A stretch of 64,000 bases of DNA. Origin: Selaginella tamariscina. Taxonomy: Eukaryota > Streptophyta > Lycopodiopsida > Selaginellales > Selaginellaceae. Positions 10,465 to 63,171 of the stretch are shown piece after piece. The translations under genes and the position numbers were made by a program. Numbering within the stretch: position 1 is the first letter of the stretch; every line of letters starts with the position of its first letter. The stretch lies in NCBI GenBank assembly GCA_003024785.1, contig PUQB01000462.1:27501-91500 (forward strand). Reading direction: 5' to 3'. Under the pieces are notes generated by a model that saw only the letters and a program-made list of their open reading frames with translations, was not told the DNA's origin and made no database searches.

Positions 10465-10522
<58 letters not shown>

Positions 10523-11431: not shown

Positions 11432-11486
11432 GTAAACGCACTTTACAAACACTGACTCTTAATTAATGATTAAACTTGATTACTTA

Positions 11487-11769
11487 AATATTGTGGTATA
11501 TTCTCTTTATAAACTTTAGCAATTACTCACATCAGCCCATTAAATGGGAGCTGTCCAGCAAAATATCGCAATCTCCTTTATCTGTAATGCATTATATATG
11601 TTTAACACATCGCACGCGCGCGCCACACAAGCGGACTAACAGAAAGAAACCTCTTTAACACTTTACATACATACATACATACGTATGTATTGTAATCATA
11701 TGTATTATTGCTTGTATGAAGGCCTCATGCTATACATATTAATGTACTATACGTACATCTGTGTATAAA

Positions 11770-11808
<39 letters not shown>

Positions 11809-12435
11809 AAGAGGGGGAGGGAGAGAGGATCTGCCAGGAGAAATATAATCTAACCTCGAAAATATGATACACTCTCTTGTAACCAGCTACACACGTAATG
11901 CATGTGTATATACGTATGTTTATACATATACGCATATATAAAACTTAGATATGCAAGAGCTAAGCGGTCCTTTGAATCTTCCGTTTAGTCTTAAATATAT
12001 TTAATAAACATGTACGTACTATATCCTATATATACAATAATAGATGTGCATATGTGTGGTGTGTGTTGTATGTACGTCTATCATTTCAGTAAAAAAAAAC
12101 TTCTCATACATATATTTCTATATATATAAAATACATGTGTACTCGCTTACTGATTTATTGCATTTAATCGTTGAAATATGCACACATAATGAACTAAATA
12201 GTTACAAAATATCAAACATGATGTGTATACGATATACATCATCCATATTACATCAGTCAACCAGTCACTGTTTATAGTGACTTTCTGCTAATTAAACTTC
12301 AAAACTCAGTAGTCTTCTTATTTATAAATAAACATCCTTGTTTTACATTTTTAAAATTAAAATAAAATATATTACCTTATAATTTAGTTAAATTATAATA
12401 ATTTAAAAAGAATATTATATTTAAATAAGAAAATT
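11487..12435. repeat. Inverted repeat arm B, downstream of the dioxygenase pseudogene
   Basis: This begins about 55 bp after the pseudogene's stop with ATATTGTGGTATATTCTC and runs to about 12435, as the reverse complement of 8430-9480. In orientation it equals the upstream region of the second dioxygenase gene (34170-34830), so it is an extra promoter-region copy pointing leftward into the 3' end of the pseudogene. It contains a relic of the topoisomerase 3' exon near 11953-11990. Confidence 0.8.
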
Positions 12436-12861
12436 TATATATAAGTATTTTATTCATTCCAAATTTTCTGTACTCTATTTCATTCTAATTTTCCTATAAG
12501 GTTCATTCAACATAACAGCAATAGTGATAAATTTAATTTAATCTCATGTTCTACAAATTCTCAACTTACATTTCTTATACTCATTTCATAATAACTATAA
12601 CAAATCTCAAATAAAAGCATCTATGAGGTTCAAATGTATATAATATGATAAATAATAAGGATACATATAAGAAAATGTCTCTCTTTAAACTTATAAAAGT
12701 GAAGTATGAATGTAAATAGAAAACTCTTAAATGCAATGTGTGAAATTATACATTGTTTTACTTAACATTAGATTACATATAAAAAAATGTATATAAAATT
12801 AGGTTTTTTTTCTTTAGGGTTAGGATATTTTTTAAGGAAACTTTGTTTAGGGTTCAGCGGG
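12436..12861. other. AT-rich intergenic region
   Basis: About 430 bp of AT-rich sequence between inverted repeat arm B and the F-box-like pseudogene. No coding region or clear regulatory element is seen. Confidence 0.4.
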
Positions 12862-13824: not shown

Positions 13825-14512
13825 ATTGAAATATGAAAATTATGATTTGTTGAATTTTAACTAAAACCTTAATATTGAGGTGTATCTTTTTTAAATTTAA
13901 ATAAATTAATTTCAATGAGCATATTGATGTTTAATAAATCTATGTATCTATTATTATTTACCCATTTCAGTACACTTAAAAAAGACTTTAAATTTGAATA
14001 AAGTTATAATAATTATAATGATATTTTACGGATTTAAGTAATGTGCTCAATATGTTTATGACATATATGTTTAATTTGTTGTAATTGGCATTTATATATA
14101 CCAAAGTTAAAGTTGAGATTTCAAATGTGTGTGCCGTTATTTGAAATAATTGAAGTACAATAATTATCTTGGTTATTATTATGATAATAAAATTAAATAA
14201 TTAAAATTATACTAGTCATTTATGTACACTTTCAACTGTGAAAACCAAGAGCATCTTTGCATATTGACGGCTACATTATGGACATATGTATGTATTTTCA
14301 GTATAACTTATGACATGTTTTTTAATAAAGTAACATTATGATATTATCTTTAACTAAGAATTAAAATGTTAAATAATGTATTATTATACTTATCAAGTTA
14401 ACAAGAGTGAACATTACATTTATATGATTTTGGCTTGTGTTTTACTCTTCAGTATTAAAATTCACCTCAATAACCGTTTAAAAACCACAACATACAATAT
14501 CAACTTATAATA
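13825..14512. other. AT-rich intergenic region left of the large element
   Basis: About 690 bp of AT-rich sequence between the F-box-like remnant and the element's left terminal repeat. No coding region is supported. Confidence 0.4.
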
Positions 14513-14640
14513 TGATGCACGTTGTAACTAAAGTGGGCATGATACGTGAGAAATGGGAATATAAAATAAATTACTAATAATACTAAGTTTTAATTATTAA
14601 TTAATCATTTAATTAATATGTAATTAAGCCTTAAATATTA
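14513..14640 (+). repeat. Left terminal inverted repeat of the large element
   Basis: The outer ~30 bp match the right end inverted. Further inward both ends share an AAATGGG-like block and a run of TTAATTAATT-like sequence. GAATATTC-type palindromes follow near 14687 and 14705, as they do inside the right end. Confidence 0.65.
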
Positions 14641-14794
14641 ATTAATTAATTAATTAATCCTTCAATAACCTTACTTAGTAAGGAATATTCCTAAAATATC
14701 TTAGAATATTCATATTATCTAAAAATAGTTTACAATAATGAAGAAATACTAATCAACATAATTAATAAAATGAAATCATTTTCTTATCAACATG

Positions 14795-15962
14795 TTAATT
14801 TTTTATAAAATACTTTCTTTTTATCATACAAAGAAATCTTTTTATTTTGTCTAAATCATCACTCTCCGGATTAATCAAATCATTTTGGTCAATATCTTGA
14901 TGTTGTTGCCACCACTTAACACTCTCACGAATGCAATTGGGAGTTGCCATCCTTGTTAATACATAAGATGTGATAAGAGAAGGTCTGCATAAAGGCTCAT
15001 CTAAAAACTGACGTTCCTTAAGAATAATATTATAAAGCGCCCGGTTGCTATCCTTCATTTTATAAAATTCAATATCACGAGAAAAAAAGCTTCAGGAAAT
15101 GTATGATACGGTGGATACTGCTCACAAAAATTTTTCGAGATTCTTCTTTCTGAGGCACGTATCCAAGTAGTTCACTAGCTCATCCATGATATCGGTATCA
15201 GAATATGGATCGAAAGTGATTGGATGAATACAAGCAATGTTTTGGTTGAGCATAGCCTTCTGAGGAGAGTCTACTACTAAGATATGTGCATTCTCGTTAT
15301 CCTTAAGCGACTGATCTCCCCTGAGTCCCAATTATTCTTTCATTCTTGAAGAAGTATGGCTTGCTTTCCTTTCTTATATTGTGAAATTCGAGAGGTTTAT
15401 ACACATTCGCTGGTCAAAAATCCAATCTTTACGAATCACCTCTTCTGCAACACTACAATGTTTCTTAAGTAAATTCAACAGCGGTGTTAAGTTATGAATC
15501 TGCATGCATGACCAAATCCCCACAAGCGCACCCATCTCCTTAAGCTTTTGAAAGAGACGATCCAACCCTGGACGAAAAATAATATCATATCGAAATTTAC
15601 CATGACAAGGAATGAAATCTCCTTGTTTGATTTCTTTTTTCTATCCTGGGCCTTTGTCGATGAAGCAGAACACCATTGACATCCAACAACACAATATGGC
15701 CATGAGTAACATGAGATAGCGTTGCCTCTTGAATACTTTGCAAATCACTTGTTTGCTCCCTTTCACATTTATCCGTTGCCACTATCTCGTTGCCTATCCC
15801 TTCATCATTTAATTGTACATCATCCTTACAAGATTCAGATATTGCATGCGCTGAAGAAATTGATTTCGGAACTGAAGCCAATAAAAATGATGATGAAGTG
15901 GCCCCCATGGTAACGATGTTTTGAGCTGCATTATTATCCATTTCCTGCATGAACTCTGTCAT
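14795..15962 (-). CDS. FCP1/NIF-like HAD phosphatase-family protein, several frameshifts
   Basis: The N-terminal ~80 residues are low in pattern. They are followed by HIVLLDVNGVLLHR, the HAD motif I position in FCP1/NIF/TIM50-like proteins, but DxN replaces DxD. Later blocks fit the same fold: CHGKFRYDIIFRPGLDRLFQ, MGALVGIWSCMQ (the hhhW/S region), NAHILVVDSPQKAM (the usual DDSP-K block) and YPPYHTFPEAF near the C-terminus. The blocks lie in different frames; at least three breaks occur (near 15630, 15350 and 15090), two at A or T runs. ATG at 15962 is the best start; the stop is at 14795. Family members act on phosphoserines of the RNA polymerase II tail or similar targets. The DxN change makes activity doubtful. 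It is the left-most gene of the large element and lies about 270 bp downstream of the ParB-like gene on the same strand. Confidence 0.55.
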
Positions 15963-16232
15963 TCTGACATGTGGCACAAGAAATTGTCGCCAAACCCCTC
16001 TCTTACCTCATGCAATGCTGAAAATCCATGTTCTCAATTATTTCATTACATCTGCAAAATGATAATTAGCTGACCTTAAAATTATCAAGGTATATTATTT
16101 ACCTTGTTAATGTGTGACCCATGTTTGAACTAAAAGCTTCATTAATCCTTGAGAATTTATTTTCTGTACAAATATAAAAAAATATACAAAAATGCCTTAT
16201 GTTACACTCATTTACAACTATTCATCACTCTA

Positions 16233-19200
16233 TCAATTCATTATCAATTCTTCTTCGCTATTACCTTCTGAGTGAGGCGAAGAAGGTCTAAGCCGCTTGT
16301 GAGATGGTTCAAGATCTTCTGCATCTTCTATTGATGTTTCCATGGGTCCTGGAGTGTGCGAATGTTCTGTACTCCTCGAGATAACTTCCGGTCTAATATC
16401 TGATTGAAGTTCGTTCTCAGACTCCGAGATTGAACCAGATTCACCTTCAGAGCTATCGCACTTATCTGGAGGGAACTTTCTCAAATACGCCTTTATGGAT
16501 TCGTTTGGGGTACTCAGTTGAGACCCAATCTATCCACTTGTTCAGGTCCTCAACCATGGTCTTATCCTTTTCAACGGCAAACACACATGTATGCCGAAGG
16601 TAACACTCCTTCAAGACGGACCCCCTAGTGCAGTAGTCAAAAACCCACGCATCACTGTGAGGACCCCTGATCAAGTTGACGATGCTCCGTGCCGCTTGAC
16701 TTGTAATGTTTGGATAACGTACATTGCCGAATACGTCACTCATACCTATCGGTGTATCGGATGGAGGTTCAGGGCCGTTGGAGTGCAAACAGATGCCTGG
16801 CCAGTCATTTGGAAGCTTGAAATTGTTTGGCGCATTCCTAACAACCAAGTGAACAACGTATCAATGCACTTGGGATTAGCATCGTTCATATAAAATCCTG
16901 TCCAACGATGTCTATTCTTCTTGGCGAAGGCGAAGGCAAAAGTATCGGTGACATGAGCAAGAATCAAGAAATAAATACCTGAAAAAGTAGGTATCAGTGA
17001 AGAGCGCAAGCATGAATTCAATAATAAATACCTTCTATGTATATGCTTGCACGGCTAAGTTTCTCCACCAGATCCTCTAGTGCCCTATCTGTCGAAAGAT
17101 TTTTTGACACCCGCCGATCCATCACGAACAATTGAAACGGTTTCCTACAAGCAGTGATGTTACCCCATAAAGTCTCCGAATCTAACAACAAACATCTGTA
17201 GGGCTTGTCGTGATTCGTAGCATCCTCCTTTATAAGGTTCAATTCGGTTCTCCGCTGCTGAAGGACTGCCATAAGAGAAGGCGTCATCCCAATGTTCTCC
17301 TTTTTGGCGTTGGCGTGCAATAGATTCTTGCCTAGATCTTCCGATTGGTTCACCCATTCGACAAGCATATCATCGTTCGTCACATGCAAATATTTGCTGA
17401 CCTCTTCATATGTTGAAGTCGAGGTCCAACCCAGTTTGTGGCAGTGTATTCCCAACCACTCCTTGAAATGCCTGACCGTCTTCAACTCCATTGCCTTGAG
17501 ATGAAAAGGAGAGGTTGGGCTGCTGTTATTAATTTGTAGTTTGCCATCGATCACCAAATCAGCCAAGACTTCCATCTCCTCCATCGTTGTTCCATTTAAA
17601 GGCTTCAACCATGTGAGCTTGAAATCGTTGTCTACATCCTTTGTAGATTGAACAGACTTAGCCTTCGGCGTCTTACTGGGTTTCTTTGCAGACTTTTCTG
17701 AGGGCTCCCCTTCACTTGTCTGCTTCTTCTTCAGTGTTCCTTTTGAAAAGGATTCCATAATCCCCAACCATTTGGCAAAGATCCTATCTTCGGGGCAAGA
17801 AATCAACATCATCAGAAAGGATGTTTCCTTCCCGCCCACCTGGGCAAAATCAACTGCTGCAATTTCTTCAACTCTCTGAGGAAAAAGACAGATTAATATA
17901 CCGGCGAGATAAATCCCGCCCAAACAATTTGCTTACCCGGTATTCCGCAGATTGTGTATTCCCTGCGGTAGCTCTTTGTGGTCGCTGAAGAGATTCCCAC
18001 ACGGCTCGCGTGTGTTTAAACTTCTCCCATATTTTGCTGTTGTAGTGGTTGGTGTCGGCAGCGTCCCATTCCGCCGATAACTTATGGTACTGCTCGATTG
18101 TGAGATTCGGCTTAGCTAAAAACGCCGATCTTTTTGTCAGCTTCTCACGGGTATGCTCGGAAAGTTTTGTTGCCATCGTTCCTTTGTTGTGTTCATCGAG
18201 AAGTCGTTGGGCTGCCGTTATTGTGTGCTGGCCACTAATGATGTAGTACTTGATAGATTTTTATTCTCCGTCTGAATCTTCATGAGTTGTTCTGGTGTTG
18301 TGATCCAGACTTTGTCAGCGCCCTTCCTTCTTTCATAGTATGGACACAAAACAGCATTATGTGGAACGGTATAAGAATTGTCGTCCTTCATCTTCTCCAT
18401 GAGCTCAGCTACACGTTCCTGGTTGAGTGGCCTGTAATTGAAGTTTGGGTTGACGCTGCAATATTTAACCCTACAAGGATAAATCTTATCATCCAACATC
18501 ATTTCCTTGTGACTTATTGCAGCATGAGATGCCACAGGTGCAGCTGACAAAACGATTGATGATTTTCTTTTGCGATCCGAATCAACATGTGTGATCCCCG
18601 ACTGCAGCTGTTCTAGTGTTCTCGGCACACTCTTCCAGCTCCCAAAGCTTCCTAAGCAAATTGAACGTGATCTGTAGAGAACCTGAGACCGAGCCACCCT
18701 CTCAATCTCCTTATGATGTCGCTGTGTTCTTCTTCAATGTGAAGAGGGAAGATTGCTCCACTTGCTGATTTTCTGTATTGTGAAGCAATATCTCCTGACA
18801 ATACACCTACTCGATGAGTCTGAAGATTTCGAAGTAGACATCCAGATGGATCCCCTCCATAGATGGGCTTTCGTTGAGTTGAAGAAGAACTCCAAGGTCA
18901 ACATCATTAGTGAACACGTGAACGTCATTATCCACAAGTCGACAAAACCACCCGAAATTAATGTTGTAACTGACGACCTCTGGATCCGAGAACGTGACAT
19001 TGGATGGAACAAGGCATATGTGTCGAGAATCGTCCAATCTGGGTTCGCAGCCTTGCTTCGGGTGCTTGACTAGCGAATCTACTTTCCATTGTTTTGCTTG
19101 TCCATGAGATGTGACAGAGGTTAATTTGACAGCAACCATGGTTGCTCCAATGCGCTTCCCATTTATCTTAAAATATGGCCAAGTTGATTCCAGAATCCCC

Positions 19201-19381
19201 CTGCCCATCTCTTCTCCTGCTCTTGTCTTTAATGTCACCTCAATTCCACATCTGAATACAAAAATGATTAGTTCAAGTATCCGAGTATAACAGATTTTAT
19301 TTTAATTCTTACCCAGAATTTGACGACGACTCCATACTAATGACTCGATCTCCTTGTTTGATCAAATCGTCCTTCTGCAAA
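16233..19381 (-). CDS. ParB-like domain plus permuted DNA-methylase-like protein, frameshifted
   Basis: The first clear exon follows a TTGCAG acceptor at about 19382 and encodes LIKQGDRVISMESSS. The next begins near 19249. A segment near 18540-18180 matches the ParB/sulfiredoxin-like N-terminal domain: VNPNFNYRPLNQERVAELME, PHNAVLCPYY and the signature YYIISGQHTITAAQRLLDE, where ParB has G-RR--AA. An intron at about 17880-17938 (GTAAGC to CTCAG) precedes a lysine-rich linker (KSAKKPSKTPKAKS) and a long helical region. The last part resembles a permuted N6/N4 methylase: GNVRYPNITSQAARSIVNLI then WVFDYCTRGSVLKECYLRHT and FAVEKD, where motif I (DxFxGxGT) is expected. I see no clear DPPY. The tail (16484-16233) is acidic with a KRLR patch. 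Frameshifts occur near 18265, 16840 and 16500. ParB-methylase fusions are common in bacterial mobile elements; here the gene faces a palindrome array. Its 5' exon is not identified. Confidence 0.5.
17903..17920. repeat. Single intronic copy of the 18-bp palindrome
   Basis: GGCGAGATAAATCCCGCC, two changes from the consensus GGCGGGATTAATCCCGCC, sits inside the short intron of the ParB/methylase-like gene. The identical 18-mer variant occurs in array 1 at 20816-20833, so this is a true member rather than chance. Confidence 0.8.
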
Positions 19382-19672
19382 ATAATACACTATAATACAA
19401 ATTATATAAAAACGCACACACACTTGTATAAACCCGAATATACAAAAATAATACACAGAGAGAAGTAGACGTAATTAACTGTCCGAAGCTCACATTTGTG
19501 TTAGTGCAAAAGAAAGATAACATTTCGTTTTAGAACCACCACAAATGTGAGCTCTGGACAGTTTTACATAGATTCCTAGCTTTTACTCGAAATATTATGA
19601 TAAGATGATAAAAGTAAATAAAATGAGATATGCAACTTATATATACTAATACACATATATATTCACATGGAA
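19382..19672. other. 5' region of the ParB-like gene, with a long inverted repeat
   Basis: AT-rich sequence between the first recognised exon and array 1. A 24-bp inverted repeat lies at 19477-19500 and 19540-19563 (core CTCACATTTGTG and its inverse, three mismatched positions or fewer), with a ~39-nt loop. It could be a structured leader, a small MITE-like insertion or a protein site. No exon is recognised here. Confidence 0.5.
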
Positions 19673-21002
19673 GGTGCGGCGGGATTAATCTCGCCACCCC
19701 TTCAATGCCTCCTGAAAGAGTGGGCGGGATTAATCTCGCCACCTTTCTGGAGGCCTTGAACGGGAGTGCGGAATTAATCTTGCCACCCTTCTCGGTCTCA
19801 GAGAGAACTGGGCAGGATTTATTTCTCACACCCCTTCAGTGACTCCAGAAAGGAGGCGGGATTAATCTCGCCCACCATGTAAGGGATGGTTAAATGAATT
19901 TCCCCCCTTCCCAGTTCTCTCCATTGGTATGTTGAAACCTTCTACGTCTCAGACAGAAACGTTTGGGATTGGTCCGACTCACCAATGGAGAAAAAAGGAA
20001 GGGTGGCGGGATTCATTCCTCCAACAGGCATTGAAGACTCGGCGGGATTAATCCCGCCGCCCAGGGCCTTCACTCGGTCCCTATGCGGCGGGATTAATCC
20101 CGCCGGACGCCAATTCCCTGCGCGGAATCGGGCGGGATTAATCCGCCGCCTAGGCACTTCAGGCAGGCCAATGGCGGCGGGATAAATCCCGCCCGATTCC
20201 GCGCAGGGCATGCGTACGCGGCGGGATTAATCCCGCCCACCATGTAAGATGGTGAAATTAATCCCACCACCTTCTCAGTTCCCTCCATTGGTATTTTGTA
20301 AACCTTCTCCGTCTCAGACAGAGTTAGTCGGGATTGATTCAACATACCAATGGAGGAAAAAGAAGGTGGGGGATTAATCCGCCACGGGCAATGAAGGTTC
20401 GGAGAGACTAATCCCGCCGCCCTCTCGTAAATCATGCGCTCACACATATATATTGGCTGCGGCATTTTGAACAGGGATGGGTGGGGGCGGGATTAATCCC
20501 GCCGCTTATATCCTGCGGAAGTGCCTGAGCGGCGGGATTAATCCCGCCGCCCTCCGCGAAGGGCATGAGCGTGGGGCCGGATTAATCCCGCCGTTCATGT
20601 CCTGCGTGAATTCCCTGGGCGGCGGGATTAATCCCGCCGTTACGCGAGGACATGTCATGCGGCTCTTCGGTTAGCCTTCCGTGCAGGATCTTTCATGCAG
20701 CTCTTCGGTTAGCCTCATGAGCGGCGGGATTAATCCCGCCGCCCATCCCTGTAAATGCCCTGCGCGGAATCCGCCGGGATTAATCCCGCCATTAGGCCTT
20801 CACATAGGCCATTCCGGCGAGATAAATCCCGCCGCATTCCGTGCAGGGCATGGTGAGCGCGGATTAATCCTGCCGGGCCCCTCACGCAGCCATGGGCGGC
20901 GGGATTAATCCCGCCGCTCTTCGGTTTGTCTAGAGCGGCGGGATTAATCCCGCCGCCATAGCCTGCGTGAAGGCCTCGCGGCGGGATTAATCCCGCCGCT
21001 CG
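19673..21002. repeat. Palindrome array 1 (GGCGGGATTAATCCCGCC)
   Basis: About 25 copies of an 18-bp palindrome and its variants, mostly 38-50 bp apart. By eye ten copies are exact, starting at 20041, 20087, 20220, 20486, 20531, 20621, 20723, 20898, 20937 and 20980. Copies near the ParB-like gene are more degenerate than those far from it. The spacers are GC-rich and related to each other (recurring CCCTGCGCGGAAT and CTTCGGTTAGCCT). The block stands out as GC-rich in AT-rich surroundings. Because the repeat is self-complementary, open frames run through it on both strands with repeating GGINPAA/GLIPP peptides; I consider these artefacts. Confidence 0.9.
19855..20410. repeat. Nested ~370-bp direct duplication inside array 1
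   Basis: The block at about 19855-20050 recurs at about 20225-20410. It runs from the palindrome and CCACCATGTAAG through CTCCATTGGTAT, the sequence GTCTCAGACAGA, ACCAATGGAG and a GAAGG..GGCG unit. Within each copy the CTCCATTGGTAT and ACCAATGGAG segments are inverted and can pair. A separate pair of imperfect inverted repeats occupies about 20113-20212 and 20758-20850 (GCGCGGAAT against its inverse). Confidence 0.7.
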
Positions 21003-21069
21003 AGGGCTTAGCATGTGTGCGAGATAAAAATTAATAAATAAAAAAATTATACAGATCAAAACACACACA

Positions 21070-21076
21070 TATTATA

Positions 21077-21127
<51 letters not shown>

Positions 21128-21452
21128 GTATGTATAGGAGTGTACGTGTGTGCAAGAGATAGATAAATAAATAAATTATACAGTACTGGTACACATAATA
21201 TGTGTGTATATGTATATCGTGTGTATGCGTGTGAGCGAAACAAATAAAATCATACAGATAAACAAACACACACACACACATATATATACACAGGAGTGTG
21301 CATGTGTGTGCGAAAGATAAAACTAATAAATAAATAAAATTATACAGATAAACACACACATATATATGTGTATATAGATATAGAGAGTCTGTGAATATAT
21401 AAGCATATATATAAACTAGTGTTGTATACTATTTGTTAATATGCATTGATTA

Positions 21453-21513
<61 letters not shown>

Positions 21514-21855
21514 AGCATGTGCGTGTGTGTGGAGAGATAGATCAATTAAAAAAAAATTATATAGATACTGGTACACATAATATGTATGTATATATGTATA
21601 TAGGTATATATATGTATATGTATATTGTGTGTATGCGTGTGTGAGCGAAACAAATAAAATCATACAGATAAACAAACACACACCCACACACATATATATA
21701 CACAGGAGTGCGTGTGTGTGCGAGAGATAAAACTAATAAATAAATAAAATATACGATAAACACACACATATATATGTGTGTGTATATATATAACCATATG
21801 AATATATAAGTTATATATAACTAGTGTTTGTATACTATTTGTAATATGCATTGAT

Positions 21856-21890
<35 letters not shown>

Positions 21891-22135
21891 AACAGTGTGC
21901 GTGTGTGTGGGAGAGATAGATCAATAAAATTTTTTTATAGATACTAGTACACATAATATATGTATGTATATATATAATATATATGTGTATATGTATATCG
22001 TGTGTATGCGTGTGTGAGCGAAAACAAATCATACAGATAAACAAACACACACCCACACACACAATATACATACACAGGAGTGTGCGTGTGTGTGCGAGAG
22101 ATAAAACTAATAAATAAAATTATACGCACACTCCT
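21070..22135. repeat. Tandem repeat, about 370-410 bp unit, roughly 2.5-3 copies, rich in CA/TA microsatellites
   Basis: Landmarks recur in order. TGGTACACATAATATGT occurs near 21187 and 21573, with a one-base variant near 21947. GAGCGAAACAAATAAAATCA occurs near 21233 and 21648, with a variant near 22016. CACAGGAGTG followed by a GATAAAACTAATAAATAAA block occurs near 21289, 21701 and 22073. (TA)n and (GTAT)n runs fill the remainder. No coding sequence. Confidence 0.75.
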
Positions 22136-22199
22136 ATACATATAATACATACATACAACACACACACACACACCACAGATCACCTGTGCAAGCCGCCGC

Positions 22200-23130
22200 C
22201 GCGATTTCACAGCCGCCTCCTCTTGAAACCCTAAGAATATACCTAACCCTAAAGAAATTAAAATATATATCACCCTAATAGAATATTCCTTCTGAGAATA
22301 TACTTAACCCTAAAAGAATAAAATATAGATTCGCCCTAAACGAATATTCTTTCATTATATTATTAGCGCGTGCGTGTGCGTGGGTGTATCACATACACCT
22401 AATCATGCAGGGATTTAACATGTGTGTGTCCATGAGAGTGTTAAAGTTTCATGTGTATTAATACATACATACACATTGCATATATTAATACACATATATA
22501 TACATACACACGTGTATACACACAGACATACATACATATCATGGTTTAGGGTTTAGGGTTAGGTTTGGATTTAGGATGGATCATGCATGGTGTTGTATGT
22601 ATGAGAGAAGAGAGAGTGTTGAAAAATATTTTGTACACATTGCATATATTAGTACACATATATACTACACATATTATACATAGATATACATACAATAGTA
22701 TATGAGAGAAGAGAGACAGTACATATTATGGATCATGCATGGTGTGTATTATACACACAGACATACATACATATTAGTACATAATATTTGAGAGACCGAG
22801 TACATATTATAGATCAGCATGGTTGTATGTTTGAGAGAAGAGACACAGTACATATTAACATGGATCATGCATGGTGTTATGTATGAGAGAAGACAGAAAG
22901 TACACTATATACATACAGAGTACACATATATACATACACACGTGTATACACACAAACTACATACATATTACATGAGTAAATTCATTGTGTTACATATTAG
23001 GGTTTAGGGTTTAGGGTTTAGGATGGATCATGCATGGTGTGAAGAGAGAGTGTTGAAAAATTATTTTTGTACACACATGTATACACAGGTTTTAGGGTTT
23101 AGGGTTTAGGGTTTGCTCCCAACAAGCTTA
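22200..23130. repeat. Telomere-like TTTAGGG tracts and a degenerate repeat with GGATCATGCATGGTGT
   Basis: Short TTTAGGG tracts occur at about 22543-22563, 22998-23022 and 23090-23114, and AACCCTAA-like bits near 22228-22300. A module starting GGATCATGCATGGTGT, usually followed by GAGAGAAGAGA and GTACACATAT, recurs near 22578, 22730, 22862 and 23024. This is interstitial telomere-type sequence within the large element, not a chromosome end. Confidence 0.65.
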
Positions 23131-23334
23131 ATATAAATATTACACATGTAAATTCAATGTGTTACATACACACAGATTGAGTACATATATCATACATGCG
23201 TTGAACATGATGTTTTCAATAAAGAAGCAACATATTTCTTCAGTTTAGTTTAGGGTTGTGCATATGTGTTTTTGTAAGTTCTTGTAATGCGTGTGTAAAT
23301 TATGATTGTGTTTATATATGTGTGCAAAACAAAC

Positions 23335-24060
23335 ATCGAATAATTAAGAAAATAATATTAATAAACACACTATGAACATATTTAAATTACTAATATATAT
23401 ATGATTTTATCTAATATATAGCCATATAGTTTAATAATATATATTAATTTAATATTGATAAAAAGGTTTAACATTGAAATATTCTTGAAATAATAAGAAA
23501 TTAATTGAGAAAATCCCATTAATATATACAAATGTAAATTAAGTACTCAATAATTAACTAAATTAATTATCATAATCATGTTTAATATTGGAATATTCTT
23601 GGAATAATAAGAAAATAAGAAATATCCCATTAATATAAAGAAGATTAATTACTCGAGTAATTAAAGGAAAATGATATTATATACACACTATGAACATATT
23701 TTAAATATACATAATAATACATCATTTTATCTAATATATAGTCATATATAGTTTAATAATATATATTAATTTAATATTGATAATAAGGTTTAACACAGGA
23801 ATATTCTTGAAATAATAACAAATTAATTGAGAAAATCCCATTAATATATACAAATGTAGAATACTTACTGCAATAATTAAGAACAAGACTAATTTAATTA
23901 TGATAATCAGGTTTAATATTAGAATATTCTTCAAATTTAATAAAATAATAAGAATATCCCATTGATACTAGGAAATGAAAATTAATACTCGAGTAATTAA
24001 GAAAATAATAATAATAAACAGACTATGAATTATTTTTGATACATAATAATATATCAATTT
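23335..24060. repeat. AT-rich tandem repeat, about 340-bp unit, just over two copies
   Basis: The sequence ACTATGAACATATTT, then ATTTTATCTAATATATAG, then a GTTTAATAATATATATTAAT block, then AATATTCTTGAAATAATAA, then ATCCCATTAATAT, appears from about 23370 and again from about 23687. A third start appears near 24020. GAATATTC palindromes occur in each copy. Confidence 0.7.
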
Positions 24061-24324
24061 ATTTATTGTATAAGTATTATATTATATATTATAATATAAA
24101 TATTACTTGAATACTAAGAATGTAGAATATAGTCTAAATTTCGTAATATTAAACAGCTTGAATCACTTGAATAACATTAAATGCAATTTTAAAATACTCT
24201 TGGAACTGGAGAGTATATATGTCAGAGTGTCGGATATTTGTGTCAACTCATCTTAAATTTTATTTTCTGTTCTTTTTAAAAAATTTGAATTCTGACATAT
24301 GTATTGTCGGTCTGACATGTAAAT

Positions 24325-24511
24325 TTGAAAATGCATTTAATTTCCCACTCAAATTCAGATCTGGTTCTTTCTCCGGCAAGGGTTTCTTCATTTCTGTATT
24401 TTCACTCTTTAGATCTTCTTTTTTTTCTTTATAGTGATCCTCTCAGGAGCGAGATTAAATTGGGTGCTATTCTTTATAGGAAAGCACGGCGCCTTCAGTG
24501 CTGTTTACAAG
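24325..24511 (+). CDS. Possible 5' exon of the transposase-like gene
   Basis: CT-rich leader-like sequence changes to a stretch able to encode GKHGAFSAVYK, directly followed by a strong donor GTAAGTATT at about 24512. If spliced to the acceptor TGTGCAG at about 25487, the first intron of the transposase-like gene would contain palindrome array 2. The frame and start are not certain. Confidence 0.35.
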
Positions 24512-24675
24512 TAAGTATTATAAACTAATTTAAAAATACTTATAAAGATTCACTCTCTTACATTCTCTCTTAAAATTACAATTTAGGGGTTACGAATGCA
24601 TTAGATATAATATATTCCGTTAGGATTTATCCCGTTTAAATATCCTTTTAACTTAATATTCTAGGTTAACCGGGG

Positions 24676-25342
24676 TGCGGATTAAATCCGCCATTTCTTT
24701 TTCGCCTCTTCGAAGAGGTGGCGGGATTAATCCCGCCGATAACCTTCTCAACTGATGAAGAGTTACCAGAATTTATTAGAAAGAGTTGTCGGCGGGATTA
24801 ATCCCGCCAACCATTTTAGGAGGCAGGGAAGGGGTGGCAGGATTAATCTCGCCACCACATCCCTGTTTTAAGGATTTGGGGACAGGATTATCCCGAGATC
24901 TCTTTGAAATCATAGTTTTGGAGAGAGTTATGTGCGGGTTTAATCCCCGCCACCCATTCCCGTCGTAAGAATTGTGGGCGGATTAATCTCGCCTTGGACT
25001 CCCTCCGACAAGGAAGAGCCGGCGGGATTAATCCGCCGCCTCTTCCTCCTCGGGGGAGTCCGACGGATTAATCCGCCGACTCTCTCCGAAGGGGTTGAGT
25101 CGGGGCGGATTAATCTCGCCGGACTCCCTTCCTCGTCGAAGAGAGTCGACGGGATTAATCCCGTCGGACTCCCCCGAGGAGAAGAGCGGCGGGATTAATC
25201 CCGCCGGCTCTTCCTTGTCGGAGGGAGTCCAAGGCGGATTAATCCCGCCGACTCTCTCCGAAGGGGTTGAGTCGGCGGCGGGATTAATCCCACCCGACCG
25301 TTCCTCGTCGGAGGGATTCGTGGCGGGATTAATCCCGCTCAT
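24676..25342. repeat. Palindrome array 2 (GGCGGGATTAATCCCGCC)
   Basis: About 15 copies of the 18-bp palindrome with a rather regular 40-51-bp period, and one longer gap. Exact copies start at 24720, 24791 and 25188. At 25148-25165 the sequence GACGGGATTAATCCCGTC carries matched changes on both arms, so the palindrome is kept. The spacers form a larger inverted repeat: 24996-25090 is broadly the inverse of 25130-25222, centred near 25110. A 25-bp spacer beginning ACTCTCTCCGAAGGGG is repeated directly at about 25078 and 25253. The array ends about 145 bp before the first conserved exon of the transposase-like gene. Confidence 0.9.
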
Positions 25343-25486
25343 CAGTTGTATTAATCAAACATGAGATATTATCTCTAAACATAATTATGTATTATTGCAT
25401 ATGCATATTATTAAGTAACCGTAATTCAGATTTCTTAAAATATTGCATAAACAGATATCAATAATAATACAATTATTTATGTGCAG

Positions 25487-28400
25487 GACAATATGTTTAA
25501 TACTGGAGATAAAGTATGTCTTCTTCGGAACAACGAGATAGTTGGCACTGGAACTGTGGAAGTTCGAGATAATAATGCTCATGTCACAATATTGCCCAAG
25601 GATCTTGTGTGTACGTATGGGTGAACACCATTTACAAGCATGTTGAGGTTCTGGAATGGAATTGAGGAGGGTTCTTCTGTATTGTGGAATTTGGATGAAG
25701 TCAAGGCTGACACAGAATATGCAGAGTCACAAACAAATAGTAGCACGAGTTTACCAGATGATGGCTTGCCTGCTGTGATGGATGAGGTGATTCTCTTTCT
25801 CGTGAGATTGAAGTCGGAAGGGCATCATCACAGCTATAAATCCAATGGAAACAGTGTCAGAAGAGAAACTAGGGTCCGACTTCGTGGGTGTAGTTGTGAC
25901 AGAGGTTTCACCTAATGGCACATTGTATCCTGGATCCCTCGTGAGGTGGCGCATCTGAATTAAGACGGCAAGATGTTCAACATATTCTGGGTTGGATTTC
26001 AATAATAACAACCGGAAAGAACAACTCATATTTGAAGAGGTTCCTTGCATTGGTCTATTGTAAGAAAAAGGCGATTCATGGGTTGTAGATCTTCCCCTGC
26101 AAGTTTCAGCAAGAGGTAAAGATGGATCTTACATCTTCCGAAAGTGTTACGCAGCATTTCCATGATTGACTATTGCAAGAAGAAGTGTTGTCAGATGGCA
26201 AACCGGAATGAAATTACCCAATGTAGACATGTTTTTCGTATGCTCACCAAAAGCAAAGGCATGAGTTTGTATATGCTGCACTAACTGGGTGTATTGAGGA
26301 ATGGCCTCGGACACAGGTTATCAGAGTACATCCATGGTATTTAATAAGGTGGCCATCTGCTTCAAAGCTTGGTACAGTATATACGGATCCAAAGACCACG
26401 TTCTACGTCGGAGGGATGAGTGCTAGATGGAGCGCGAACCTCAAGTACATGGGAACACTCGCTTGGTCAAAACCCGCTCTCACACATGGCAGCCATAGAG
26501 ATACTCAAGGCTTTGTGGAAGCAAATGCAGACAGGATGCCTCACAAATGCCGAACCACAAATGCAGGGGTCAGGGAAAATTCAAGGTTTTGCCTTCAATC
26601 TACACTCAATTGAAGTTGTGTGAACATGTGAACAAGTCCCTCAGTTTGATGGGGCTCCAACAATCTGCACTGGTACTTCAACAACATATGGAATACTCAT
26701 TTTAAGGATGTGAGATTGCAAAACACTCTAGCTTTTCCAAGTGTGACACTTGTACATCATTGAAGGCTGCAGAGGCTTGTGCAAAAACCTTGGTGGAGAT
26801 CACTGCCATTCAAAAGAAGATGGAGGCCCACATGATTGCACAACAAACTTGCCGGTCTCAGTACTATGCACACCGCATGCTTCTGGGTCACACCCATTAG
26901 AGTACCTGTGCTTGATCCATGACAAGATGGATCATTCAAAGACCAGCATTCCAAAGCTTTGCAACACCAAAGTGCCTTGAAAATGTCATGAAACTTCCGA
27001 TTTTATTGACAGGTGTGCTAACACATGGACACGGTTGTGAGTCATATGGACACTTTTCACTTCCACATTGGTCTAGCGACTCTAATTTCACTATTGGGTC
27101 ATTAGCCATGTGTTTTTAGAAACCTTGAAGCCCACTACAGACAAGTCCTATCAGTGATCTCAAAGTGAAGAAACAACACCTTCACCTTTACATAATGCTC
27201 TCATGAACACGTCTGCACTTGAGGCTACTTGGGAATATGAGAGGCATTGTCAACAGCCTGCACAGAAAATAGATGGCCCTGTTGAGAGTTCTGGTTCAGT
27301 GGAGGGATCTAGCTCAAATAGTGTACATGTGTCCTCAACATCAAATAAGCTTCCTCGTCATTTGCTTTTACAGATGGATAATTGTGCAGGCGAGAATAAA
27401 AATAGGTAAATCATTTACTTAAGGGTTTCTCAAGCTCATACTTACTTTTATTTTCTAGATATGTGCTAGCATACTTGTCAATGCTTGTTGCCAAAGGTGT
27501 GTTTGAAACAATCACGCTCAGTTTCCTTATGTTGGTCACACTCATGAAGATATTGATGCGTTCTTCAGCAAGGTCTCCAACTCTACAAAAAGGACAAGTG
27601 CACTTACTTACCGCATATGATGAATCTTTTGAAAATTGCATCTCCAAAAAAAGTTGTGCTTTGCTTGTGACTGAGGTGCCAGACTTCAAAAAAATTTCTC
27701 AAGGTATATAAAAGAAGGGAGTGATTCTTTTAGTGTGGTCACCTTGTGAGGTTAATGCTCTTTAAAAAGTGGAGAGGATGGAAAGTCACTTCTCCCAGAA
27801 GGACAACCAGACCCTATTCCATTGAGTGCCCAGCTCAAGGAACAAGAGGTTATTATTGATGGCATCAAAAATATGTGGCATGGGTTCAAAAATCGATGCC
27901 AAAGAATTCTGATAAGGCAACTGGTTACTCAGAACTATATAAGCATGTGGTCGACTATTGGGAGACTGTTGTTCGAGAGTTGGAAGGGCCTACTGTCACA
28001 AGTACAGAATTGCAACACCCTTTCTGGCCTAAAACAAGTGGCGAGAGGAGATTGAAATGACATCACTGAGCATAGATGACATAGAAGCCAGTAGTGATGT
28101 GGAAGTGCAAACCCCACACTTTGTTGGACAAAGGAACCAAAAACCTAAAGCATACTTTGATTGTGCTAGGATCTTCAAAAACTAATGATGGTTCTCATTA
28201 CTCCAGATGCGTCATATAATCAGCCTATTTGGATGGGTCAAATTATCGACACACCTGAAGTAATCACACAAAATAGTATTGTTAAGGTTGCATAGTTCAA
28301 ACCACAAAAAAGGCGACACGAGAAGGAGAGCGAAAGATATAAAGGATGCCTAGAGAAAATATGGTCTCTCAATCAAAAAGACCCAGCATGTTTTATAAAT

Positions 28401-28487
28401 GTTAAATCCATTCGATATGGGTGGATGTCAAGAAGCGTTGATAAAGTCACGATTAAACAAAACTGCAAGGGAATGTATGTTTTCTGA
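25487..28487 (+). CDS. DUF7869-type transposase-like protein, multiple frameshifts
   Basis: After a TGTGCAG acceptor the N-terminus encodes NTGDKVCLLRNNEIVGTGTV, a small domain often found at the start of plant transposase-like proteins. Later blocks in several frames match a large family of plant and algal mobile-element proteins (DUF7869): YCKKKCCQMANRNE, FSKCDTCTSLKAAEAC, SQYYAHR, LCLIHDKMDHSKTSIPK, GVLTHGHGCESYGHFSLPHW, SDSNFTIGSLA, LQMDNCAGENKNR, YVLAYLSMLVAKGVFETITL and a block that would read VGHTHEDID-FFSK with a frame change. A GT-AG intron splits ENKNR from YVLAYL (about 27406-27459). Candidate catalytic acids are D in HDKMD, D in QMDN and E/D in HEDID. The tail ends with RYGWMSRSVDKV and a stop at 28485-28487. 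At least five frameshifts make this copy inactive as written. Confidence 0.6.
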
Positions 28488-28869
28488 AGCTTAAAGCAAT
28501 TTATATTTATAAAATATATCATATATTTAATATTCATAATTATTATAAACTCTTTAATAATAGTACCAAATTGTATATACTTAACTATATAAATTTAAAA
28601 AATGATATGGAAGATTGACTATATTATTATAGGATTTTATATATATATTTACTACAAATTTTTAATTAATTAATGTTATATTTTAATATTAATATTTTAA
28701 TAACAACATCATATTTATATAATGTACCTCTTATGCTCTTCCTTAATTGTTATATTAGGCAATATATTATATAATTTAATACCTTCTACTTTTATAATGT
28801 TATTAATTTTTGTTCAATGAATGCTATAATTTTAAAGGGTAGAATACAAAATAGAATATTAAAGAATAT

Positions 28870-28997
28870 TCTCTTTTCAATATATATTCTAAAGAATATT
28901 CCTTTAATATTAGAAAATACTAATTAAATAGTTAAAATTGCTAATTATTAGGAAATGGGACTATAGCCATGCCCATTTTAGTTACAACTTGCATTAT
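28870..28997 (-). repeat. Right terminal inverted repeat of the large element
   Basis: Ends with ATGCCCATTTTAGTTACAAC (28969-28988) and TTGCATTAT. The preceding ~115 bp, with ACTAATTAAATAGTTAAAAT and GGACTATAG blocks, match 63058-63171 well in the same orientation. They match the left end inverted. Confidence 0.68.
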
Positions 28998-31174
28998 GGT
29001 TCCAGGTACTTAGACTACCCATTGGAATTTACATGCATGTAGATTCCTATAATAAATAATCATATTAATTATGTGCATACATACATAAACAGTTTAAAAT
29101 ATGTTACACATAAAAATTATTTAAACTAAAGAAGAAAGTGTTAAAAACCTTAGTGAAATCATCTTTTTGTATAAGTGTATTTTTAAAGTGTTAAAAACCA
29201 ATGAAATAAATTCAAAGATAAACAATTCTTTGTTTTTTGGTTAGGTTAGAGAAACTTAAGGTGTTTGAAAAGACTAATCTTCTTAATTTAAATAATTATA
29301 TGTATAAACATATATACTAGAGATATATAGAAATGTATTCTTATACAAAGCCTTAGTGAAATGTATATCTCTTTATAGGTTAATACTATATATATTATTT
29401 TTTAGTGTACTGTATAGTAATATACCTACACAATTCCAAACGTTTTCACTTACTCATTTCAAATTATTTAATAAATTTTCATAAGAACTCTTTTTTACAT
29501 ATAGAACTCCCTTTTTTTTTTTAATTTAATCAGAATTAGACTATAGAAAAAAATAAAAAATATTTCTAAGGCACATTTACACTAGTAACTATGTTTATTT
29601 AATGTTTATTTTCTTTAGTAGAAAATTGCATTTGCACTCTAATATTTAGTACGGAAGACTTTTTAAAAGTATGTATGAACTCTTAGTAAATTAATAAAAT
29701 AAGGTTAAGCCCATATAATATGCCTTCAAAATATTTAATATAATAATTAATTTTATTTATTTTTATTATATTTTATAAGACTAGAGACAACATACAATAA
29801 ATACCTAAATTTGAAATAAATTTGTATTCAAAATCAGGATTTATATATATATAAAGTATTCTTCACCATAAGGTTTGGTAAAGAATTAGTCACATTAGCA
29901 TATACATTAAGTATTACCCTTCATGTGAAAATTTATTCAATCGTAATGACTAAATATACTCATTTCCAAAGTGATAACTTTATCTCGTAAACATATTGAA
30001 CATCTTATTCTTACAAACTAAGATTTATATATGTAATGTTTAAATAAAAGGATGGAGCTAAATTAAAATATGTTTTCTATTAAACTAATAAAAAGTTTTA
30101 ATTTATTATCTTGGATAAATATGCTAATAAATTGATTATAATTGATTAAAATATTTTGATTAATAAATTCATAAACTTAAATTGAACATCCTAAATAAAT
30201 ATTTGCATATTACAAATCATTCTATTGTGTGATCTTATTTCTTTTACACCATCAACATGTTATATTTTATACAACTAATTAAAATTAATATTTTAAGCCA
30301 ATGTCTTTGATGTTGAATATGTCTTCAATGTAAAAGACACATTTTAGATTTTTTAATTACATGTTAGCAATGTTGCTTATATACATTGAGTATGCCATTT
30401 AATATTTTGATATGGTTCTTAATATTAAAAATTGTGTATCATGTTTCCTTACATTTAATACACTTTATCCTCTTTTATGCGGAGAATTTTTTTTTTTTTT
30501 CTTTTATATCATAATATAACACAGAATCATTAATATCTTTGATTAATTTAAAATCAATCATTTCAAACAATAGTATTCATAATAAAAGAGCATAAATATG
30601 CAAATTTATTAGAACACAACAATTTAGTTTCTTTTTATGACTGATAATAATATCTAATAATTATGAATAAATTTTTTAACAGTTTGAGAGTATTACATAA
30701 TTAGTAAATTATGTTTCTTGATTTGTTTTACTTGTTCCAGACATGTGTCAAAGTCTTTTTAAAATTTCATATTTCAATGTAAATTTTCTTCTTTAAAATT
30801 CTTAAAACTCATGCACAACAACACGAACTCACTCCAAATCATAGTATATACAACATGCTCTATACAAAATATTACAAACACTAAGTCTTATTTTGTATTA
30901 TATTTATATTGGTTTTACTGAATATATTATTTCTTCATTTCATTATCTCACATTAATCAAAGTAGTAAAAACTAATAATATAACATGCTATTAAGATTAC
31001 ATCGGTTTAGAACAAACTAATAATATACATACTCCAATTCAAAATGAACATTGGGCCTCGTAAACGTCGGTGTTCTATAAAAATGTCAAATTCATTATTG
31101 TAGTAATTAGTTATTGTTAATATAATAAAAAATTCTACAATAGTGCAGATTCCTGCTTCTCCCCTCTTTTAAAT
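28998..31174. other. AT-rich intergenic region
   Basis: More than 2 kb of AT-rich DNA with short poly-T runs (for example 29510-29522 and 30487-30500). I see no coding region, RNA gene or clear repeat. Confidence 0.45.
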
Positions 31175-31504: not shown

Positions 31505-31684
31505 CGATAATGAGCCAAGCACTAAGAGGAACGTGATAAAATGGTTCAAGCTATAACCATATGGTTCTTATTCATAACATTAAATTTAATTTCATTATAA
31601 ACAGCAATTCCGAGAACATAATTAACGATTAAGTAATCAAGTTTAATCGTCAATTAAGAGTCAGTGTTTGTAAAGTGCGTTTAC

Positions 31685-32933
31685 TCAGCCTCTGAGACAA
31701 ATATATGTTCAAGTATTTCTCGAATGTCAATGCAGCGTATTGTGCTGGATGCTGTTCATCCACAAGCTGAGGAAGAGGTTTAATTAATTCATTCGTGGGA
31801 GGGTAAAAAAACTCGCAAATGAAAACCTCGTCTTATTGGAGTTTGCATGCCTCTATGTTCTACGCTCTTGTACCTAACTGTTACTCAAAATCTGGAAAAA
31901 TATACATAGTTATATATATCCATGCATGTATATATATCTGATGACTAACACTCATCATATATGTATATACATGTATGTTGGTAGAAATATAAATATACAA
32001 AATCTTCATATCTCGTCTTCTTACCTAATGACACACACACCACACACACATATTGAACAGATAAATGCATGTGTGTATGAGTGCGTAGATACACAGACAT
32101 ATACAACTTACATGCATAAGCATGTGGGCAACTTCAAACAGTATTTATGTACGTTGTACGTGTGTATGTATATAGGAATCTATAGATGCGTAGAACATAG
32201 GTTGTTTCATTTAACTACCAACTTTAATATGCATAACTGTGTGGAGAGAGAGGGAGAGAGAGTACCTGTAGCTGATCACCAAGGTTGACAACGAGGGAAT
32301 TTGGGATAGGTTTAACAGTAACCCAGGAGTTGAACTTCTTCACTTGCAAGCCTTGTACTTGGTTCATCAAGAGCACAGTAATCAAACCTGGATCACAATG
32401 GGGACGTACTCCAAGAACAAGATGAGGCTCCGGACACGGTAGATACCTGTTGATAAGCAACGATTGTTCTAGATGTGAAACTGTACTCTCAACACAGCCC
32501 GCTTCTAGCCCCAGTCCCTGTGATATGAGTGATATCATGGTTAAAGCCAGAGCACGTACTTGCTCACAATACTCCTTCACTGCATTCCTGTGTTAACTTC
32601 ACTGTTTAGTATATACTCTCCCTCCTCTCTCTCTCTCTCTCTCATGTGTGGATATATGTAGGTAGTACTAAAGCCCCATCCCTACAGTTCCAGCAAAACC
32701 TCCTACGAGAAGCCAAAGTTTATATGCCCGGACTCCAGGTCCTTAACCGCATGGCCAAGGAAGCCCCATAACTCAGGCTACTTCTATCAATTAATGTAGC
32801 TAGCTTAAACTCGTTTACACACAAATATAATTACTATGAAGATATAGCGAGCTTTTAGACGCACGCACGCACCACTTAGAATAGAATGGGTCTATTATGG
32901 TATATATGTGTGTGTGCGTGCGTGCGTGTATGT

Positions 32934-32964
<31 letters not shown>

Positions 32965-33666
32965 GAGAGAGACCAGAAGGTGAAAACTCTGAGCTGCTGT
33001 TACAACTACATGCATTCAATGATACCATGACATATGCATAAGATATCTAATATGTATTAATCTACTGGTATCTATAGCTGATGGTAAGTTTTACTTGTTT
33101 ATAATATTTAGTTTTCATAGCTATACTACATATATACTATCAATATAGAGTATAAGCATGCACACACACAACCTGAGTAAATGAGGAGAGGCGGGGAATG
33201 CGTTTAAGACATCTTCAGTGAGAGGATAACACTTCAGCATGTCCAAGAAATCCCTCCAATCTTGAACACCATTACTATCGAACTGAAGGCCATATCTAAT
33301 TCCACTCATAGTCTTACTCGGTTCTGCACTGAAGTACTTCATTCTCTCTTCCATGGGAAGCTCAAAAAACTCTTCTGCAACCTGTATGCAACAGTGTGTG
33401 TGCGTGTGAGGTATGTGTAGAAACATGATCTGGTAAGATATTTTCTAATGTATATCTACATATCTGCGATAGTCCATAACTGATGTAAAATATCTATATC
33501 AGATAAAAAATATAGTTTATACATATATCATCTGTAGTTTATATATTTGCTATATATGAATGATGAATGTATCTATCTATCTATATATATCAGCAGTGTA
33601 TAATTAACTACAATTTATATACCTCTATACGTAGATATCTTCGTTCAGTAGTGGGGATTTATATAC

Positions 33667-33708
<42 letters not shown>

Positions 33709-34866: not shown

Positions 34867-34908
<42 letters not shown>

Positions 34909-61487: not shown

Positions 61488-63049
61488 ATCTGTGCGCCCG
61501 CGCGTTATGTGGATCCAGGAAAGGGTATATGCGTTTTTAGTTTTAGTGGAGGAAGGTTTATGACAGGCGTGGAAAAAGTACTGAACAGTGTGTATATAGT
61601 GCTTTGCATCACCAGAGAATTGAAAATGACGGCTGGAGTTATCCGTAACGTTTTAGATTGGTCAAAACGTTATTAAGAATTAATTAATTATGTTAGGGTT
61701 AGGGCCAAGTCAGATCCACGTTTTATTTTTTTTATATTGACTGGACAATTACGTGTATGTGTCACAGTTTTCAACATTGCATAATTCTCTCACACACACG
61801 CACACAATTTATGTGTGGCCATGTGTTAAGACAATAGATAGGACATACATAGCATTAAGTGGCTATAAACTGATATATTTGATATATTGACATTAGATGG
61901 TGGTTACCAATGGAACTGTTTTGCTAAAAAACCAAATGGGATATGTTTATGTGTGTGCGTGTGTCTATGTGTGAAGGATAGAAGCTAAAGAATAGCTCTA
62001 TAAGATGTGACCCTCACCAAATATTAAATTTTCCACTTACATGTGAACAATATTTATAAATATTTAAATAATGTCTAAGTTAAAACTGTACACAATATTT
62101 AAACAATCAAACCTACAATACATAATATAGTTTAATTTTTAATTATTATTGAGTATGATTATTCACTTACATTTTTTTATCCCATTATAAGACATAAATT
62201 CTTTTTCATAATAATTTGGTGAGTAACTTTGTTAATCATAATAAATAATAATAATAATAATAATTATTATTATTATTATGTTAAATTGTATTATTAATCT
62301 TTATATAATATCTTCTCGTTGACTAAATGTTAAATAAAATTAATTAAGTACTTATAATTTTTGTGTAATAAATTTTTAAATAACACTCATGCTTTACTAA
62401 TACACATAATGTACGTAATGTTTCTCTTTCAGTACATTAGTAATACATGTATATCATAATAATATTTTTCTATTATGTTTTGAAGTTAAATATTAAATAT
62501 TATTGTAGTTTTAGCATTAGTGGATTTTAAATATTTTCACTATAATTTTTTATTTCACTTTTAAATTCATTATATATTTAATACATTATTTTCAAATATA
62601 AATTGAAGTTATTACTTTTGAATTTGAACATACTTTAAATCTTATTTCTGAATAATATGTTTCCTTACAGCTTTATATATTTAAATCCTCATTAAACATT
62701 GGAATTTAATAGTTATTTTTAAGGTAATAATAAAAAATATTGTTGATTAATGTAAATACTAACGTTACCACAGTATATAACAAATTTCACTATAGCCTTC
62801 GCCTTCAAATATTTGATTTTAATTTTTTATAATATAAATATATTGATAAATGCAACATAATTATTTTTTGTTCATATAAATATTAAAAACAAAGTTCTTT
62901 CTATGTAAACAAAAAATCAGAGATAATATAGCTAAATAAATATTATATATAAATTAATATTATTTATCCAATTTTAAATCTAGAATGGGAATGATATAAA
63001 AAAAAATTAATTAATACTTACGTATTAATTATTAATATTTTAAAAAATA
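61488..63049. other. Dirigent promoter side and AT-rich intergenic region
   Basis: The first ~200 bp hold the likely promoter of the dirigent gene, with a TATATA-like motif near 61595. The rest is AT-rich, including an (AAT)n-(ATT)n palindromic microsatellite at about 62243-62279. No coding region is supported. Confidence 0.45.
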
Positions 63050-63171
63050 TTTTTTCTTTAAACATATATTATTCTAAAATTATTTCTTTTATATTAAAAA
63101 ATACTAATTAAATAATTAAAATTATTAATTATTAAAAAAATGGACTATAAACATTCCCATTTAGTTACAAC
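63050..63171. mobile_element. Orphan right end of the large-element family
   Basis: About 115 bp ending CCCATTTAGTTACAAC match the right terminus of the large element (28870-28988), including ATACTAATTAAATA(A/G)TTAAAAT, a TAATTATTA block and GGACTATA(A/G). No partner left end was found within the window to the left. It may be a solo terminus, or the edge of a short derivative. Confidence 0.6.

Follow-up and report, generated by a model that had tools for sequence, protein, structure and literature searches.

A repeated 14,480-bp element with a DUF7869 gene and arrays of an 18-bp palindrome in Selaginella tamariscina

Genes, arrays and borders of the element

We analyzed 64,000 nucleotides of the Selaginella tamariscina genome (GenBank assembly GCA_003024785.1, contig PUQB01000462.1, positions 27,501 to 91,500), here called the window, in which a reading of the sequence alone had proposed a single large, mutated DNA transposon of a repeated family, with inverted ends, a rightward DUF7869 transposase-like gene, two leftward genes and central repeat arrays. 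All of these parts were recovered, and the comparison of 18 copies placed the element at 14515-28994 (14,480 bp), 2-3 bp off the borders first given (14513-28997). From left to right, it holds a NIF/FCP-type phosphatase-like gene on the reverse strand (14795..16007), a second reverse-strand gene, gene 2, of about 900 residues with at least three inferred exons (16235..19350, approximate coordinates), a first palindrome array (19678..20997), an AT-rich centre (21006..24650), a second array (24675..25339) and the forward-strand DUF7869 transposase gene (25493..28494), which has one inferred intron at ~27410-27465.

The left terminal inverted repeat (TIR), ATGCACGTTGTAACTAAAGTGGGCATG, covers 27 bp at 14515..14541 on the forward strand, and 25 of its 27 positions are identical in the right TIR at 28968..28994 on the reverse strand. 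Scanning the window with the 21-mer core of these ends, GTTGTAACTAAARTGGGCATG, gave exactly two places without mismatch, at 14521 (+) and 28988 (-), facing each other; the next best places had six mismatches. Directly outside, the tetranucleotide TATG stands at 14511..14514 and again at 28995..28998, and the flanks of the 18 copies identify it as a target-site duplication.

Both arrays are built from the 18-bp palindrome GGCGGGATTAATCCCGCC. With up to 5 mismatches allowed, array 1 has 24 copies and lies directly upstream of gene 2, and array 2 has 13, lies directly upstream of the DUF7869 gene and folds as a long hairpin. A lone copy with 2 mismatches (17903..17920) sits within gene 2, in its first inferred intron. 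At ≤4 mismatches, the window contains 36 palindromes, every one of them inside the element. The commonest spacing is 44-45 bp, in array 1 as well as in grouped listed places elsewhere in the genome. Between the arrays, the AT-rich centre (GC 0.27) carries microsatellites as well as short stretches of TTTAGGG, which resembles the plant telomere repeat (at 22545, 23003 and 23091; another is found at 3747), along with large internal direct duplications, 21198-22118 and 23336-24105, which are ~83% identical. Rfam and tRNA scans gave no match.

Copies of the element in the host assembly

Across the host assembly (300.7 Mb in 1,391 contigs), the end core was present in 2,926 exact copies and its reversed control in none. 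The left 188 bp used as a query returned 291 candidate places, and all 40 that were scored were full length, or nearly so, at 98-100% identity; the right 188 bp returned 1,513 candidates, 40 of which were scored, at 96-100% identity. Among the first 100 listed ends, 23 adjacent pairs faced inward at distances of up to 25 kb, and in 18 pairs the distance was 13.7-15.4 kb. These 36 ends in near-full-length pairs extrapolate, roughly, to ~530 copies occupying 7-8 Mb, or 2.5% of the assembly.

Twenty left ends were fetched, a non-random sample drawn from the 40 best matches, in which C950, C447, C3 and C1182 were chosen since their right ends were already known from the right-end search. Three could not be followed: C1081 and one copy at C955 run into contig ends, and C764 has 2,978 N and no right core. 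In 17 of the 17 others, the right end was found 12.6-15.0 kb away, which with the window makes 18 copies; all 18 start with ATGCAC and end with TTGCAT (in one, an additional base precedes TTGCAT). Complete or almost complete sequences were retrieved for ten copies besides the window, and eight of these could, like the window, be read end to end; nine further followed copies were read at their ends only. In each of the nine end-to-end copies the three genes recurred without change of order, contrary to the refuting case named by the sequence-only reading, in which the ends would never flank one gene set. Of the 11 copies thus available, counting the window, all had the NIF gene, gene 2, its intron palindrome and array 1; 10 had array 2 (it is absent from C1182, 12.6 kb long); and 9 had the DUF7869 gene, the exceptions being C1081, where the contig ends, and C764, with its N gap. 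Identity to the window was 96-99% over the left 5.3-6.2 kb and mostly 94-97% in the right gene blocks.

Identical 4-bp flanks occurred on both sides of 12 of the 18 copies (window included), compared with 1.76 expected when flanks were re-paired among copies, and in all 12 the duplication ends in TG. TGCA, our initial reading of the duplication, was wrong, being part of the ends in the 18 copies. DDE-type TIR transposons have inverted ends at their borders and a target-site duplication of fixed length; both traits were found here, the duplication at 4 bp, with a 2-bp version scoring similarly. Given well-defined inverted ends, a 4-bp duplication at 12 of the 18 copies compared, many dispersed sites, a constant gene order in the end-to-end copies and the DDE fold predicted for the DUF7869 protein, we consider, at a probability of about 0.85, that the element belongs to a DNA transposon family that moves by cut-and-paste, is present in high copy number and was amplified recently.

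Several observations weigh against this reading. Five of the 18 copies lack an exact duplication (C447 matches at three of four bases; C950, C3, C882 and C91 do not match), and for C1304 a match requires a 1-nt insertion. The offset and length of the duplication were picked after scanning alternative borders and lengths, and a nested 2-bp duplication, two bases further out, performs marginally better (13 of 18, 2.65 expected). All 18 copies carry TG at the left flank; either TG belongs to the left end and the duplication has 2 bp, or the target is strictly NNTG, which we favour because TG also stands on the right side in the 12 matching copies. Finally, the first 100 listed ends included 11 outward-facing neighbours, 255 bp to 24 kb apart (four at 13-15 kb), and 7 same-strand neighbours.

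A third terminus near 63 kb, from which a repeated family had been suggested, is homologous to the right end (82% over 137 bp) and probably makes up one half of a miniature, degenerate relative of 199 bp at 62973..63171 (+), whose left end agrees with the core at 15 of 21 positions (6 mismatches) and at which no target duplication is visible. Two close pairs of end cores, ~250 bp apart (C1:2394829/2395084 and C80:563737/563986), one back to back and the other head to tail, are perhaps nested or rearranged copies. The flanks of the element in the window hold pieces of ordinary genes, namely a bacterial-type topoisomerase, a dirigent protein and a 2OG-Fe(II) oxygenase. Related stretches lie inverted on either side, at 8429-12443 and 31629-35361 (~76-97% identical, blastn), with the 2OG-Fe(II) oxygenase and part of the topoisomerase 3' region.

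The DUF7869 gene and its two companions

Joined pieces of the window DUF7869 gene match Pfam PF25273 (E 5e-38). This gene is broken by many frame shifts in the window, so this copy is mutated as had been read, and it is open over long stretches in other copies (680 aa in C643; 496 + 392 aa in C950). Relative to C91, its exons carry 21 and 11 frame-breaking indels in the window and 2-6 and 1-6 in the other aligned copies, C1182 exon 1 being left out as partly deleted and misaligned. Leaving C1182 aside, the gene is more interrupted in the window than in any other copy compared; the window copy is unlikely to make the transposase itself and would be movable only in trans. Interruptions of the genes differ from copy to copy. 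Counts of 1-2 nt indels and substitutions relative to C91 over 3.5 kb were 11/6 (C447), 11/7 (C950), 8/7 (C837), 10/14 (C643), 6/22 (C3) and 10/23 (window), with indels outnumbering substitutions in three of the five comparisons of other copies. Since such indels often exceed substitutions, some are probably assembly errors, and single frameshifts are weak evidence of dead genes.

A PF25273 search of the host assembly gave 4,250 candidates, 150 of which were scored, with open frames of up to 1,092 aa and a stop in three of the matches listed; none of 14 control genomes had a match to this family. DUF7869 relatives occur in liverworts, molluscs, echinoderms and Chromera, with no function stated, and one of them (P0003) carries a second precomputed domain, PF26133. 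Viral-contig scans for DUF7869, the element ends and the arrays yielded no confirmed relative. A literature search found no paper naming DUF7869, and the family may stand in Repbase under another name. Among the papers listed for strings of the active-site motif, all were unrelated and none held the two longer strings.

The DUF7869 protein is predicted to be the transposase, as the sequence-only reading had supposed, and to be of the DDE type. Its model (predicted local distance difference test score, pLDDT, 91) has a DDE integrase/transposase fold, with an RNase H-like core and conserved acidic residues, and in a second structural search all 50 matches listed were retroviral integrases or mariner-type transposases. 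The predicted fold and strand order are those of the retroviral integrase, mariner-Mos1 and SETMAR cores, and acidic residues occupy the strand and helix positions where they would be expected; identity is 7-14% in the structural alignments listed, and a shared fold is not family membership. On the other side, Foldseek alone gave no E below 0.001, and the structural list for a longer model also includes Argonautes and unrelated chains at lower Z. Absence from a structural list was not counted as evidence, and a PDB sequence search with the protein gave no match. From the predicted DDE fold and the short duplication, we infer that the DUF7869 transposase would cut at ATGCA and insert with a 4-bp stagger.

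We compared these traits with those of known superfamilies. Mutator elements, including VANDAL, have a MULE transposase and a ~9-bp duplication; here, the duplication is 4 bp and Pfam finds DUF7869 and no MULE domain. CACTA/EnSpm elements have CACTA/G termini and a 3-bp duplication, compared with ATGCA termini and 4 bp here, and a match to PF03017 (TNP1/EN/SPM transposase domain) in the N-terminal part of the C950 protein was below the cut-off (E 0.21). Pfam gave no match to Kyakuja-Dileera-Zisupton (KDZ) either, and two DUF7869 relatives scanned with Pfam, P0003 being one of them, had DUF7869 above the cut-off, no KDZ domain and no integrase-core match. The KDZ member Zisupton-1_PGr makes 8-bp duplications (PMC12730594), unlike the 4 bp seen here. 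Duplications of 4 bp are described for Ginger1/IS481EU and other superfamilies (PMC10045372), in which membership turns on the transposase sequence.

The two companion genes had been described as bacterial-style accessory genes, one HAD-phosphatase-like and the other ParB/methylase-like, and this description was not supported. The HAD-like gene belongs to the NIF/FCP family PF03031 (E 2.8e-9 for joined window pieces; E 1.8e-11 and 44.4 bits, cut-off 21.8, for the open 412-aa frame of C447), a family known mainly from eukaryotes. It is interrupted in the window. NIF/FCP-SCP phosphatases carry a DxDx(T/V) motif with both aspartates; motif I reads LLDVNGV here, with Asn in place of the second Asp, and phosphatase activity of the predicted protein is uncertain. 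The ratio of nonsynonymous to synonymous differences (pN/pS) of this gene was 0.99 over ten comparisons.

In gene 2, two motifs were noted by eye, one ParB-like, IISGQHTITAAQ, and one methylase-like and C-terminal; the place resembling motif IV reads DRR, not DPP. No ParB or methylase match was found in Pfam, NCBIfam, PHROGs or PDB, a profile scan gave no ParBc or ParBc_2 match at E≤10, and no methylase-family profile, including that expected of a beta-class DNA methyltransferase, matched. The sole outside hint was a tblastn match (E=1, 43% over 47 aa) to an annotated ParBc_2 plasmid protein, whose relatives, sought for profile building, were not found. The motif and the arrays of palindromic sites are reminiscent of bacterial ParB-parS and ParBc_2, with the difference that gene 2 has no profile match; the palindrome is also unlike the parS consensus. 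A ParB-like nature of gene 2 is thus unproven. In 5.8 billion proteins, none of 7,994 scored candidate homologues reached E≤0.001 and none of the 639 candidates of a second search reached E≤10; a viral-contig scan found nothing. One phage match (E=7) proved to be to an AAA ATPase and due to chance, and we also took as chance four phage matches of the methylase-like part (E 3-8, including baseplate and polymerase genes) and its matches in PDB, which were to designed repeat proteins only.

Gene 2 has a 478-aa open frame in C91 and C1081, and its evolution looks constrained. Between C91 and C882 (L021, L022), a diverged member of the same layout that is useful for selection tests (pS ~0.12 in exon A), exon A had pS 0.12 and pN 0.029, exon B 0.108 and 0.021, and exon C 0.062 and 0.033. 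The pN/pS values of exons A, B and C of the gene were 0.28, 0.14 and 0.56. A 191-aa core, with the query taken from C91, was identical at the protein level in 126 of 150 scored places (4,896 candidates).

Possible roles of the palindrome arrays

The most unusual feature of the element is its 24-52 GGCGGGATTAATCCCGCC palindromes per copy. With ≤3 mismatches, array 1 has 19-32 and array 2 has 11-19 per copy, and 27,128 exact copies were counted genome-wide, compared with none for the motif read backwards. We propose that these GC-rich arrays, directly upstream of two divergent genes, are a platform for a DNA-binding protein that the element itself encodes, whose binding would mark the element and keep both promoters on, much as VANC does on the tandem motifs of VANDAL. 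As the binder, the gene 2 product would be the most likely single candidate, albeit a tentative one, with the transposase and a host factor jointly having an even chance.

VANDAL elements of Arabidopsis, which are non-TIR and Mutator-like, are likewise large plant DNA transposons with accessory genes and noncoding arrays of short motifs, and PMC5735166 describes these arrays upstream of genes and in introns, with units gained or lost between copies. The palindromes upstream of both divergent genes, the intron copy in 11 of 11 copies and the variable copy number resemble VANC target arrays as portrayed there (PMC5735166). The element differs in its inverted ends, its DUF7869 transposase and its 4-bp duplication; its repeat is an 18-bp palindrome compared with the 9-bp directional motif of VANDAL, and binding to its arrays, or loss of methylation there, would be putative. 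Fungal DNA transposons (KDZ, IS3EU, EnSpm, Plavaka and others) also carry an accessory gene, of TET/JBP type, thought to aid escape from silencing (PMC12730594); their accessory genes differ from those of the Selaginella element.

Some results speak against a binding platform. Pairwise identity was 83% among palindromes and 29% among spacers in register, and the former is inflated because the palindromes were selected by motif similarity; the spacers are themselves distantly related in both orientations. The array spacers had CpG observed/expected ratios of 0.62 and 0.85; as 21 GC-rich bins taken from outside the element spanned 0.32-1.04, the spacers show, in this window comparison, no CpG trace of protection from methylation. 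Gene 2, whose product is the putative binder, has no family profile match.

Among other explanations, the arrays could bind the DUF7869 transposase as internal synapsis enhancers or self-repression sites, gene 2 doing something else. One array does lie at the promoter of the DUF7869 gene, and the transposase is the one protein certain to need element DNA. In the window, however, the palindrome does not occur in the terminal regions, the usual binding place of transposases, and the invariable intron copy points to gene 2. We regard this option as possible but rather unlikely.

Slightly less probable in our view is a passenger scenario, in which the element has captured gene 2 and the NIF gene, neither takes part in transposition, and the arrays are neutral tandem repeats made by slippage and inverted duplication. 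The pN/pS values of the NIF gene and of gene 2 exon C would fit, as would the mutually related spacers. The single strand of array 2 (24975-25340) forms a long hairpin (z -18.8 relative to dinucleotide shuffles), and this hairpin needs no special spacer order, its minimum free energy of -170.2 comparing with -154.9 ± 8.6 (minimum -171.7) for 60 spacer permutations. It is mostly due to the palindromes and the mutually complementary spacers, and we did not build on a function for it since permuted spacers can fold equally well. In the 20041-20638 part of array 1, however, none of 60 permutations folded as well as the real order (-207.6 compared with a minimum of -206.0, a small margin). The low pN/pS of gene 2 exons A and B, its conserved protein core and the retention of palindromes while spacers decay also argue against mere passengers.

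Less likely again, the arrays could be host transcription-factor sites of the E2F type, by which the element would fire in dividing cells. GGCGGGA and its mirror resemble E2F half-sites, the arrays are directly upstream of both divergent genes, and 43 of the 44 TCCCGCC sites of the window lie inside the element. However, the strict plant E2F consensus, WTTSSCSS, is not concentrated there (4 of 15 window matches), and a copy number that varies among copies fits a selfish array better than a host promoter. Lastly, two unrelated miniature inverted-repeat transposable elements flanking ordinary genes by chance could be entertained from the window, where the ends are short and their 30-bp alignment is not overwhelming (score 45, compared with a maximum of 41 among 300 random pairs from the AT-rich window), but the genome-wide end counts are overwhelming, and the paired ends and shared genes of the other copies have already refuted this idea.

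If DUF7869 proteins are DDE transposases, a widespread domain would gain a function, and the known superfamilies of DNA transposons would probably grow by one. With 27,128 exact palindromes in a 300-Mb genome, the family offers a direct test, independent of Arabidopsis VANDAL, of whether private protein-DNA codes for evading silencing have evolved in transposons.

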